Of a stretch of DNA of 44,578 nucleotides, positions 13,028-18,130 are shown piece by piece (position 1 is the first letter of the stretch; every line of letters begins with the position of its first letter). The position numbers were made by a program, and so were the translations under genes. This DNA is from Roseburia sp. (GTDB taxonomy: Bacteria > Bacillota > Clostridia > Lachnospirales > Lachnospiraceae). The notes beneath the pieces are model-generated. The model ran no database searches. It was not told the origin of the DNA and saw only the letters and a list, made by a program, of their open reading frames with translations. The stretch is from NCBI GenBank assembly GCA_022771695.1, contig JALEKJ010000014.1, positions 1 through 44,578 on the forward strand, given 5' to 3'.

Positions 13028-15070
13028 TTATTCAAACAGTTTTGATAATTTCTGCTCATACACAATATGAAGCTCATGCAGTGCCCGGGTGACCGCTACA
13101 TACAAAAGCTTCGCATCCCCCTCCGTCTCCCTGTAATCCTCTTCCGAAGGATCATAGAGAATTACTGCATCAAATTCCAAGCCTTTTGTCAGCCGGATGG
13201 GAAGCACCATAACTCCCTTGTCAAAGTCTGTTTGCTCCCCTGTCTGTCCCAGCCACTTTCTGACCTGCGCTGCCTGCTCTTCGTTTCTGCAGATAATCAC
13301 TGTCGTATCATATCCGCGCTCCTTTATATCAGAAAGCAGTTTGTTGACTGTATCGCACATCATTGACTTTGCCGGATGAAATTCCACCTGACGTCCATGG
13401 CGGATAACCGGAATAATCTTGTATACGCCGAAGGACGCTTTTTCAAGAATTTTCCCGGCATACTCGGAAATCTCAATCGTATTCCGGTAACTTTTTGAGA
13501 GGACATGAAACTGGGCTCTCTCTCCATCAAATACCCTGCTTTTTACCTCATCCCAACTGTTCATACCGGTCTCATAATTGATGTTCTGTGATACATCCCC
13601 CATAATCGTAAAATAGCATCCGCTGAGCACCTGTTTTAGCACATAATAGACCGCCGTACCAAAATCCTGCGCCTCATCGATAATAATCTGGCTGTATTCA
13701 TCCGTTTGCGCCTTTGCCGTGACCCGCTTCCAGATTAACGTCAACGCTGCAAGGTCGTACACATGAAACTTTCCCTTCTCCGGCAGTGTACCGGACACAT
13801 CATCATGCTCTTTTGCATAATCTTCCAAAAACTCTTCGTAGATGCCAAGGATATCCGTCTTCTCCATCTTAAAATAGCCCTCATATTGCATTTTCACAGC
13901 TTTTTTCTTCTCGGCACTCTCCTCCTCTGTCATGAGAAAATCAATGCGTTTCTTTATTCTCTCATTTAGAAGCTTCTGAAGCTGTAGAATTGAATAGTCC
14001 AGATTTTCCCGCAGCGTATCTCGAATGCTTTCTGCTGACAAAATAACACCGATTTTTTCATCCCGGATATCCTCCAATGGAATCATGCTCGCCTTTCGCT
14101 CCTCTAATGCCTGCTCGAGAGCAAGAATAAACGATAGTTTGCTCTTGTAGGCATCCTTTACAGGAATCGGAACAATTAGCTCCCTTTCCTCCTGCTTTTT
14201 TCCAAATATTTTCGCAATCTCCTTTTTATGCTCCTTCTCAAGCAAAACCCGGAAAAACAAGTCCATGCGCCGCTGTGAGACATCGTGCACATCGAGTTCC
14301 GGCAAACCGCTGGTAATATAGTGAAGCAGCATATCGTTGCCACCGATAATGCAAAATTCACTCGGTAGGAACTTCTTCTCATAGTTGTAAAGGATGTAGG
14401 AAATCCGGTGCATTGCCACAGTCGTTTTCCCGCTTCCCGCAACGCCCTGCACAATCACATCATAATAAGGCGACTCACGAATGATTTCGTTCTGCTCCTT
14501 CTGGATTGTTGAAATGATATCGCCAAGTACCACATCCTTGTTTTGGGAAAGATATTTGACCAACAGTTCGTCCGTTGCCACCGCATCATTGTCGTAGTAA
14601 CCCAGCAGTTCCCCACCGCTTACATCAAAGGTCCTCTTTAACGTAAGGTTCACCGCAATCTCTCCGACGTCCGGCACAAAATAGCTTCCGGCTCCCAGCT
14701 CATTTTCATAGTAGAGCGTAGAAACCGGAGCCCGCCAATCCACAATCAATACATCCGTGCGTTTTCTCGTGACACCGTTTTTGCCAATGTAAATCTTTTC
14801 TTCTCTGCCGCTTTCTGCTTCCCTGTAATCCACCCTGCCAAAATAAGGCTTTTCGAGTGCAGCGCGGTTCTTACGAAGCGCATTTTCATTGTGAAAGAGC
14901 ATGTCCTTGCTTACAATCAACTGATTGTAAAGTTCCACGTCACCGGATGCAACCGCTGCATATAAGTTCTCTGTCTCCTGCTTTCCCAGCAACACCTTTT
15001 CCTCATAGCTTTTGATATTCTCGCGGATAATGGCTTTGCATGCCTTAAAATATGCTAATTCCTCTTTCAT
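13028..15070 (-). CDS. helD: HelD-like UvrD/Rep-type helicase
   Basis: A 680-residue superfamily-1 ATPase. The Walker A is QGVAGSGKTTVAMHR (about 210-224), Walker B is IIIDEAQDFG (about 465), motif III is IMGDVSQNI, and the C-terminal motifs are LTKGLEFDAVILYDP and YVAVTRALHELHIVY. The N-terminal ~120 residues are a coiled-coil arm (YFKACKAIIRENIKSYEEKV). This layout is that of HelD, which binds RNA polymerase and removes stalled complexes from DNA and RNA. A role as DNA helicase in repair is the alternative. Length is somewhat shorter than the ~770 residues of B. subtilis HelD. It stands alone on the minus strand. Confidence 0.88.
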   Translation of the reverse strand: MKEELAYFKACKAIIRENIKSYEEKVLLGKQETENLYAAVASGDVELYNQLIVSKDMLFHNENALRKNRAALEKPYFGRVDYREAESGREEKIYIGKNGVTRKRTDVLIVDWRAPVSTLYYENELGAGSYFVPDVGEIAVNLTLKRTFDVSGGELLGYYDNDAVATDELLVKYLSQNKDVVLGDIISTIQKEQNEIIRESPYYDVIVQGVAGSGKTTVAMHRISYILYNYEKKFLPSEFCIIGGNDMLLHYITSGLPELDVHDVSQRRMDLFFRVLLEKEHKKEIAKIFGKKQEERELIVPIPVKDAYKSKLSFILALEQALEERKASMIPLEDIRDEKIGVILSAESIRDTLRENLDYSILQLQKLLNERIKKRIDFLMTEEESAEKKKAVKMQYEGYFKMEKTDILGIYEEFLEDYAKEHDDVSGTLPEKGKFHVYDLAALTLIWKRVTAKAQTDEYSQIIIDEAQDFGTAVYYVLKQVLSGCYFTIMGDVSQNINYETGMNSWDEVKSRVFDGERAQFHVLSKSYRNTIEISEYAGKILEKASFGVYKIIPVIRHGRQVEFHPAKSMMCDTVNKLLSDIKERGYDTTVIICRNEEQAAQVRKWLGQTGEQTDFDKGVMVLPIRLTKGLEFDAVILYDPSEEDYRETEGDAKLLYVAVTRALHELHIVYEQKLSKLFE

Positions 15071-15221: not shown

Positions 15222-17451
15222 ATGCTTTAAATACAATCACAACTTTGAATAAGTCTCCGTCCACTTCCACACGGAAATAGCCGCCCTGCGCTTCGGTAAA
15301 ACTCTTTGCAATCGCAAGTCCGAGTCCCGAACCTTCCGTATTTCTGGACGCATCCCCACGCACAAAGCGCTCCGTCAATTCATCCGGACGGACGTTTAAT
15401 TCCATCGCAGACATATTTTTCATCGTAATCTCTACCTGACCGTTTTCCTGCTTCAGATCAATATAGACACGGCTGTGCGGCATTGCGTATTTCTGAATAT
15501 TCACAAAAAGATTCTCAAATACCCGGTATGACTTCTGATTGTCCAATGCCAGAATCACCTTCTCTTCCGGCACATTCCAACGCAAATCCAGACCCATTTC
15601 CGCAAATTTTTCCGCATGCTCCACACTAACCTGCTTCATCAGATTAATTACATCCACATCCATAAGGTCAATTTTGATATTGTTGCTGGTCGCCTTGCTC
15701 ACCTCAAATAAATCCTCCACCAACACCTTAAGGCGCAGTGACTTGCGCTCCAGGATGTCGATATAAGACCGGCGTTCCTCCTCCGTGATATCTTCTTTTT
15801 TCAGAAGTTCTACATAGGTCGTGATTGCCGTCAGAGGCGTCTTTAGATCGTGTGAAACGTTTGTAATCAGTTCTGTTTTCATGCGCTGACTCTTCACTTC
15901 CTCATCCACCGCTTTCTTAAATCCGGTACGGACCTTTGCCAATTCGCCTTTTACAGGTTCAAACATTCCAAAGTCTTCGGTAATCTCAGTGTCCAAATCG
16001 CCCTCTGCCATCCGGTTCACCCCACGAAGCAGCGCCTGATAATAAAATTGTACCTTGCTGTAATAATTCTCAATGATAAAAAACAGAATCACGGAATAAA
16101 TGACCAACATAAGAATTCCGAAGAACCACATTGTAGAACACAATGCAAGTACCACAAAATTAATCACAACAAGCTTTATAATGGTCTTTATCGAGTTTTT
16201 GCTAAAATCAATGTGATTCACCTCATGCTTGAATTTCTCCCACTGCTTTTTTATCCACGGGAAAATCTGATAAAAAAAGCTGTACTCTCTGATATACTCC
16301 CGCACGCCCAATGCAAATACCGGACGGATAAAGCGAATGGAAAGATACCAGATGCCATAAATGCAAAACAGTCCCAAATCGATTACAGCCAGATCCATAA
16401 ATGCATCTACCATACCGCCGCTTGTCTGATTAAGCCTGATGTTCTCTATCGATACCGACCATTTATAAAGCATATCAAAGAAAGAATCCCCCAGACAAAG
16501 TACACATAGCACCCCTATGCACGCTGCCTCCATCAAATACCAATTTCCGGGACGATGTAGCTCTATGTCACATTTCCAAATCTTACTGCTGGTCATCACA
16601 AATACCAGCACAACCACCATCACAAGCGCCGCCAGATACAAAAGCTGTCCGCCTTCCTCCGCGTATACGCGTAAAATAGTCCAATAGTCTGCACTATTCT
16701 CATAGTCTGTCGACACAAGTTGATAATCACCTGTCCTCGGTATCGCATACACAATGTCAATACCCGACGGCTCCTTCATGCTGCAGGTAATTCCCAGATT
16801 TCCATATTCTTCCCGCAAATTTCCCCATATGTCATATTCGCGAGTCAACTGTCCCATTGCTTTGATTAACATGTCAGCATCCACATTATCACCGTAGAGC
16901 GGCTCTGTCGTAAGTATTCCGTTTTCATCAAAATGAAGAACGAAATAGATACTGTAATGCTGAATCAACTGATTCTCTGTCTCTTTTCCCACACCGGAGA
17001 AAAGCTGCTCCAACGGCTGGCTTGTGTTTTTCTCATAAGTCCCATCCTGCCTCCGGATGCAATAATCTATCTCGGCGCGATAATTTTCAAAGCTCCCGGA
17101 AAGCATGTCCATGGTATCGTCAACGGCATACACTAAGTCGTTCACATAGCTTGCTTTTTCCTCGTCATTTTGCGGATAAGATGCTTCCAGATAGACTTCC
17201 GATGCTGTCGTTGCTCCCTCCCGCTGCATGGCTTCCATGTAAAGCACATAGCACCCGGTATAGAGTTGATCCAGCACCGTAGTATCCAGTTCCTGCTCGA
17301 GTTCTGCGTTTTCACTCATCCTTGCAAGTCTTTTTCCGGCAGCCTGATTAATCGCCGGAAAAAAACAGGTCGTAATGATTGTAATTACAAGAATTCCAAG
17401 CACCGCCAAAGTGCTTCTCGTTTTACGGTTGTTTTTCAATTTTATATCCAA
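15220..17451 (-). CDS. Membrane sensor histidine kinase (VanS/OmpR-type partner)
   Basis: A 743-residue kinase that should phosphorylate the adjacent response regulator. One membrane helix lies at about 15-34. An extracellular sensor region of ~230 residues follows, then several further helices (about 270-295, 305-325, 345-370 and a long pair at 430-470). The phospho-acceptor box NVSHDLKTPL has H534, and the ATPase domain has ENLFVNIQKYA (N-box, about 647) and GSGLGLAIAKS (G2). The usual D-x-G box is replaced by MKNMSAMELN, as seen in other clostridial relatives. Translation starts at TTG 17451, inside what was the 3' end of the regulator gene (29-bp overlap with its ancestral frame), so coupling was probably lost when the regulator gained its stop codon. 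Confidence 0.9.
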   Translation of the reverse strand: MDIKLKNNRKTRSTLAVLGILVITIITTCFFPAINQAAGKRLARMSENAELEQELDTTVLDQLYTGCYVLYMEAMQREGATTASEVYLEASYPQNDEEKASYVNDLVYAVDDTMDMLSGSFENYRAEIDYCIRRQDGTYEKNTSQPLEQLFSGVGKETENQLIQHYSIYFVLHFDENGILTTEPLYGDNVDADMLIKAMGQLTREYDIWGNLREEYGNLGITCSMKEPSGIDIVYAIPRTGDYQLVSTDYENSADYWTILRVYAEEGGQLLYLAALVMVVVLVFVMTSSKIWKCDIELHRPGNWYLMEAACIGVLCVLCLGDSFFDMLYKWSVSIENIRLNQTSGGMVDAFMDLAVIDLGLFCIYGIWYLSIRFIRPVFALGVREYIREYSFFYQIFPWIKKQWEKFKHEVNHIDFSKNSIKTIIKLVVINFVVLALCSTMWFFGILMLVIYSVILFFIIENYYSKVQFYYQALLRGVNRMAEGDLDTEITEDFGMFEPVKGELAKVRTGFKKAVDEEVKSQRMKTELITNVSHDLKTPLTAITTYVELLKKEDITEEERRSYIDILERKSLRLKVLVEDLFEVSKATSNNIKIDLMDVDVINLMKQVSVEHAEKFAEMGLDLRWNVPEEKVILALDNQKSYRVFENLFVNIQKYAMPHSRVYIDLKQENGQVEITMKNMSAMELNVRPDELTERFVRGDASRNTEGSGLGLAIAKSFTEAQGGYFRVEVDGDLFKVVIVFKA

Positions 17452-17497
17452 CGCCCCACACCACCTTTAAATATTTTGGTTCCTTCGGGTTGATTTA
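17423..17497 (-). pseudogene. Orphaned 3' end of the response-regulator gene
   Basis: Right after the TAA at 17495-17497 the same frame continues as INPKEPKYLKVVWGVGYKIE and then KQP, ending at TAA 17423-17425. This is exactly the conserved end of an OmpR/VanR-type winged-helix domain (consensus NPREPRYLKVVWGVGYKIE). One base substitution, most simply GAA to TAA, separates it from the rest. The frame overlaps the TTG start of the kinase by 29 bp. Confidence 0.9.
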
Positions 17498-18130
17498 AAT
17501 CTTGTCCCGAATGTTTCTGACATGTACCATAATCGTATCTGTGTTGATTGCCTTTTCATTCCACACACGCTCATAGATTTCCTCTGCGGAGTATACTCTT
17601 CCCGGTGTGCGGATGAGAAGCGCCAATATCTTAAACTCAATCGGTGTCATCTTCACCGGATTTCCATCCACGAACACTTCTACCGTGTCCTCATTCAGTT
17701 CTAAACCACCAAGCACATGCACCCGGTCGTTTTTCACTTCTGTGCCGCTCTTGTTCATAAACTTTGTGTAACGGCGCAGTTGGGAATTCACCCGCGCCAT
17801 CAGTTCTAACGGTGTAAAGGGTTTGGTCACATAATCGTCTGCGCCGATATTTAAACCAATCACCTTGTCCGTCTCCTCCGACTTTGCAGAAAGCATGATA
17901 ACCGGGAACTCATATTTTTCGCGCAGCTTCATGGTCATCGTAACGCCGTCCATCCGCGGCATCATGATGTCTACAATCGCGAGATGGATTTCCTCCCGCT
18001 CAATGACCTGCAAACCTTCTATTCCGTCTGCTGCCTTAAACACGTTGTAGTTCTGGCTCTTCAAAAATATCTCAATTCCATCTCGGATTTCTTTGTCATC
18101 TTCTACGACTAATATGTTGTACTTTTCCAT
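17495..18130 (-). CDS. VanR/OmpR-type response regulator, prematurely terminated
   Basis: A 211-residue two-component regulator. The receiver domain has the acidic pair E10/D11/D12, phospho-acceptor D54 (AIVDIMMPRMDG), S81 and K103 (VTKPF). The winged-helix DNA-binding domain begins near 135 and includes VKMTPIEFKILALLIRTPGR and the recognition helix INTDTIMVHVRNIRDKI, after which the protein stops. ATG 18130 is chosen for GGGGAGGA upstream. The missing ~23 residues form the C-terminal beta-hairpin (wing), needed for a stable fold and minor-groove contact. The gene is therefore probably inactive or altered, unless the stop is read through or is a sequence error. The kinase follows in the same operon. 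Confidence 0.9.
   Translation of the reverse strand: MEKYNILVVEDDKEIRDGIEIFLKSQNYNVFKAADGIEGLQVIEREEIHLAIVDIMMPRMDGVTMTMKLREKYEFPVIMLSAKSEETDKVIGLNIGADDYVTKPFTPLELMARVNSQLRRYTKFMNKSGTEVKNDRVHVLGGLELNEDTVEVFVDGNPVKMTPIEFKILALLIRTPGRVYSAEEIYERVWNEKAINTDTIMVHVRNIRDKI

Follow-up and report, generated by a model that had tools for sequence, protein, structure and literature searches.

A premature stop codon, seen so far in one assembly, in an OmpR/PhoB-type response regulator gene of Roseburia

A response regulator gene in the Roseburia DNA considered here, a stretch of 44,578 nucleotides that is referred to as the window, ends at an in-frame TAA before the last part of its DNA-binding domain is decoded. 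The reading to which we would give roughly two chances in three is that of a recent nonsense allele, private to the strain, of an otherwise ordinary OmpR/PhoB regulator in a Roseburia species. Since the relatives are intact, what is seen looks like a private and recent loss (or a sequencing error), and not like a new mechanism. That the change is recent is suggested by one line of evidence, the protein identity to an intact homologue, P0001, described below. The gene is followed by that of a histidine kinase, and the two are not simply adjacent: the kinase start is nested in the former 3′ end of the regulator gene, so that the features involved, all on the minus strand, are best given together.

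17495..18130, minus strand: truncated OmpR/PhoB-type response regulator, 211 residues plus TAA (translation and Pfam)
17495..17497, minus strand: in-frame TAA, seen only in this assembly (translation; 0 of 102 relative loci)
17423..17494, minus strand: what follows the stop in the regulator gene, namely 23 former codons (presumed wing, and C-terminus) with the former stop at 17425-17423
17459..17468, minus strand: Shine-Dalgarno-like AAAGGTGGTG, undamaged, 7 nt before the kinase TTG (conserved codons)
17449..17451, minus strand: kinase TTG start, nested in the former regulator 3′ end with a 29-nt overlap that includes the former stop codon
15220..17451, minus strand: intact membrane histidine kinase, 743 residues, with HisKA and HATPase_c (open reading frame and Pfam)

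The shortened frame and its family

The minus-strand frame from 18130 (translated to 17405) gives 211 residues ending VRNIRDKI, then a stop, then INPKEPKYLKVVWGVGYKIEKQP and then a further stop. Both TAA codons, at 17497-17495 and at 17425-17423, were verified in the sequence, and the coding part before the first of them is 18130-17498. A preliminary description of this DNA had placed the stop at this TAA with the conserved end of the protein next in the same frame, and had the coordinates right. The receiver domain is full (PF00072 at residues 6-115, profile positions 1-111 of 111, 102 bits against a cut-off of 30.2). The match to PF00486, at residues 156-211, reaches 56.9 bits against a cut-off of 26.2 and covers only positions 1-57 of the 77 in the profile, which fits the earlier statement that the wing of the winged-helix domain has been removed. 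As in OmpR/PhoB response regulators generally, the receiver is complete and the DNA-binding domain is matched from its first profile position; the difference, in this assembly only so far, is that the last 20 of the 77 PF00486 positions are gone, so that the winged-helix output domain by which a member of the family is recognized is incomplete. The gene is thus a truncated allele of an OmpR/PhoB family member. At the level of sequence the lost last 24 residues are the end of the winged-helix domain, and from their position in the profile and the known fold of the family they would contain the beta-hairpin wing.

Is this regulator a VanR? The preliminary description had called it VanR-like, and as a resemblance this holds, as VanR NF033117 is the best-scoring NCBIfam model and a VanS-like kinase follows. 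It does not extend to a VanR of resistance, the score being 243.3 bits against a curated cut-off of 350 (the truncated query lowers it somewhat) and the genome having no match to PF01427, which we take to be the family of VanX. Against NF033120 the truncated query scored 219.5 bits, with a cut-off of 460, and the kinase reaches 164 bits with the VanS model, where the cut-off is 400. Two PF07478 matches are present in the genome, both on a contig other than that of the window (C34): one is a strong D-Ala ligase match of untyped class, and the other, of 45.9 bits, belongs to a frame of 1086 residues that resembles a different ATP-grasp enzyme. As far as these family matches tell, the resistance genes that VanR would accompany, an altered ligase and VanX, were not found in the genome, and a vancomycin-resistance cluster is rejected on the sub-cut-off scores, the missing PF01427 and the single strong D-Ala ligase match. 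Pairs of vanRS without resistance ligases are described in several bacteria, and Roseburia is named among bacteria with VanR relatives, in the available portion of PMC11273654.

Intact relatives and the state of the neighbourhood

A homologue search among approximately 5.8 billion proteins gave 7740 under the threshold, and the best 120 of these were listed. The shortest of the 120 has 234 residues and none is as short as 211; even the window's own 211-residue form is absent from them, although the contig of the window appears to be in the collection, one of 44578 bases being given for the kinase. P0001, of 235 residues and listed for 16 contigs, is identical at all 211 residues, and its end is identical to the 23 residues that the window's frame encodes past the stop, which is more than chance; it differs from P0002 by one residue, and PF00486 is among the precomputed domain assignments of P0001 and other intact copies. 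The existence of an intact protein that is identical at all other residues fits the earlier proposal of a single changed codon. At the DNA level 102 relative loci were compared. Of these, 22 are from other genomes of the genus Roseburia (59 genomes, drawn from a larger group, were searched, and 22 matched at E 1e-90 or better) and 80 are from named genomes, the best 80 of at least 586; some genomes are in both sets, and 92 of the loci are distinct by DNA. A sense codon for the same residue stands at the position of the stop in all 102 (92 distinct), and is followed in every one by a tail of 19-25 residues, those of L083 (19) and L096 (22) being shortened by the ends of the loci. The same stop in most relatives had been named in advance as the observation that would tell against a private change. 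It is in none of the 102 loci, hence the proposal survives, and a stop common to relatives is ruled out. The most similar regulator among the relatives, that of G049, shares 95% of residues, with about 72% DNA identity over the regulator-kinase stretch; for the regulator alone, DNA identity is 82% and 80% in two other relatives. In a literature search of limited coverage, no report joining Roseburia, a premature stop and a response regulator was found.

Could the shorter protein nevertheless be one that works? A wing-less regulator might dimerise and drain phosphate from the kinase, or be dominant negative, and be kept by selection. In favour of this, its receiver domain is complete and its 211 residues are those of P0001. 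However, with no short version among the best 120 of the 7740 homologues and with the tail following in each of the 102 loci, the tail seems to be required throughout the family, and we regard a functional short form as improbable.

The open frames of three relatives (four stretches, one of them without matches) were aligned to the window, and covered 12 window genes, at 9.8-13.0 kb and 15.2-25.1 kb; matches under 35% and 48% identity were omitted from the two alignment listings. Of these 12, the regulator alone has a true-frame stop inside its coding region. The other stops in the alignments are 5′ of start codons, coincide with the natural ends of genes, or belong to matches that are antisense or in another frame. 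For the 12 genes that the relatives' contigs cover, a general decay of the region is ruled out. The histidine kinase is open over 743 residues, and an identical 743-residue protein is listed for 2 contigs, the longest of 44578 bases, which is the length of the window. Its neighbours in the window include a glycosyltransferase, a VTT-domain protein and a HelD-like helicase. The gene for the last of these (13028-15070) comes directly after that of the kinase, and in L111, L113 and L114 it is lacking from the DNA matches, in which the kinase is followed at once by the next gene. The frame of the following kinase could be judged in 77 of the 80 named loci, the other 3 being too short, and repeated kinase loss in relatives was rejected as an in-frame stop was present in just 1 of the 77. 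In that locus (L034, 4665-6932, from an uncultured Roseburia metagenome assembly) an in-frame TAG cuts the kinase into 219 and 536 residues. In this regulator-kinase pair private stops, whether genuine or errors, are thus uncommon, but the present one is not the only case.

The L034 case shows that such stops occur in these assemblies, and so has relevance to whether the TAA arose in the cell or at the bench. An error of base calling, of assembly or of a mixed-strain consensus, with the regulator of the living strain intact, would leave just what is seen: a stop in one assembly only, every other residue unchanged in comparison with the intact protein, and no damage to any other of the 12 window genes that were compared. 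A single wrong base in the assembly would be indistinguishable from a real allele. Set against this are the quality of the assembly (99.99% complete, 0.33% contamination, 69 contigs) and the lack of a further internal stop in the 12 genes, though both say nothing on a single base. An error is, in our estimation, unlikely, but deserves to be taken seriously.

If the stop is real, it would matter whether the cell has some other means of obtaining the complete protein. A DNA search of the genome revealed no second, intact copy of the regulator, the locus being present once; at the protein level, the next best match in the genome is a paralogue that is 55% identical. That paralogue (L002, at G000:C62:5392-6006) is itself complete and has nearly the same conserved tail, EINPKEPRYLKVVWGVGYKIDKN. 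The other means would be read-through or suppression of the TAA, so that full-length regulator is still made, as the preliminary description had allowed. The frame past the stop is undamaged, as read-through would have it, but a recent change explains this equally well. The genome gave 37 tRNA matches, and with ARAGORN run on the loci with matches there is no ochre-reading anticodon among the tRNAs called. The called set is incomplete and a suppressor could be missed: no tRNAs for Asp, Gln, His or Ile are among those called, which argues that the assembly or the search is short of some tRNA genes, and one match at a contig end (C19:122185-122244) was left uncalled by ARAGORN. Overall, read-through is disfavoured, to the extent that we find it barely credible.

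A kinase start within the former 3′ end of the regulator gene

The statement that the kinase gene starts inside the former 3′ end of the regulator gene is correct, with TTG at 17451-17449, and conservation in relatives is what argues for this nested start being real. In a survey of 91 rows, the window included, the longest open frame was used as the following one, with its identity as a kinase assumed for each row; for L083 and L096 none was obtained, and these two are outside the count. The first candidate start is 26 to 32 nt before the end of the regulator stop in 84 of the 91, being TTG at -29 in 37, GTG at -32 in 22, GTG at -29 in 14 and TTG at -26 in 11. The remaining 7 are single cases, two of which (TTG at -23 and at -20) are likewise within the overlap. 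Codon choice in the regulator points in the same direction. Among the 92 distinct relatives, which are not independent of each other, so that binomial tests exaggerate the significance, the Lys-Val-Val codons of the regulator 3′ end are AAG in 92, GTG in 89 and GTG in 87. The Val codon that precedes the motif's last Gly, and whose last two bases begin the TTG, is GTT in 83 of these same non-independent 92, whereas further upstream in these genes only about 10% of the Val codons are GTT. The Lys-Val-Val codons make up the stretch AAAGGTGGTG, which is likely to be the ribosome-binding site of the kinase, and in the window what appear to be the ribosome-binding and start signals of the kinase are undamaged. 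An RNA hairpin that would hide the kinase start was also considered, and is unsupported, as the predicted fold is no stronger than that of shuffled sequences (z-score 0.78).

As in other overlapping regulator-kinase pairs, the kinase start and a Shine-Dalgarno-like stretch are here within the regulator 3′ end, and are conserved. The contrast is in the extent, the overlap being 29 nt where the commonest are 1 or 4 nt (PMC10666635, as far as its available text goes), and in the regulator stop now being 43 nt upstream of the kinase TTG. Relevant to that distance, the same available text describes three E. coli gene pairs with 1-nt overlaps; with a gap of 38 nt, reinitiation fell by 80-90% in two of them and ceased altogether in the third. 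By analogy with these, any coupling that the gene arrangement allows between regulator and kinase could be weakened by the stop, as the preliminary description had suggested. However, the overlap is 29 nt as against 1 nt, and the kinase has a likely ribosome-binding site of its own, so that the amount of kinase may or may not be affected.

Consequences for the regulator and its kinase

Returning to the private nonsense allele, its expected consequences are simple, and require no special function of the stop. Translation would end before the last 24 residues, i.e., before the end of the winged-helix domain, and the complete receiver could still accept phosphate from the kinase. The 211-residue protein would most likely fold poorly or bind DNA weakly, and the output of the two-component system would be reduced or lost. 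The kinase would be intact with its start signals kept, and with its start 43 nt from the regulator stop any termination-reinitiation coupling would be weakened. DNA binding by the regulator is probably impaired because the Pfam match to its DNA-binding domain is reduced to 57 of 77 positions; in ToxR, binding of the winged-helix domain to DNA depends on residues of the wing (PMC6733452, in the part of that report available). A weak or inactive regulator accompanied by an intact kinase is the most likely state of the pair.

What brought the allele about, or retained it, is a separate issue, and for a stop present in one assembly it may have been selection, drift, laboratory passage or a base error. 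A further proposal is a selected switch in which the stop, coming before the nested kinase start, both removes the wing and uncouples kinase synthesis, leaving a regulator that accepts phosphate yet is transcriptionally silent, with the sensor intact, in a subpopulation of strains. We judge such a switch to be very improbable. Strains are well known to vary by loss-of-function alleles of regulators, and the truncated allele itself would be of concern chiefly to those who work with this strain or assembly. Of more lasting interest is a point that goes beyond the single truncated allele and concerns the DNA for the presumed wing. This doubles as the likely ribosome-binding site and the start codon of the kinase, so that changes there can hit two genes.
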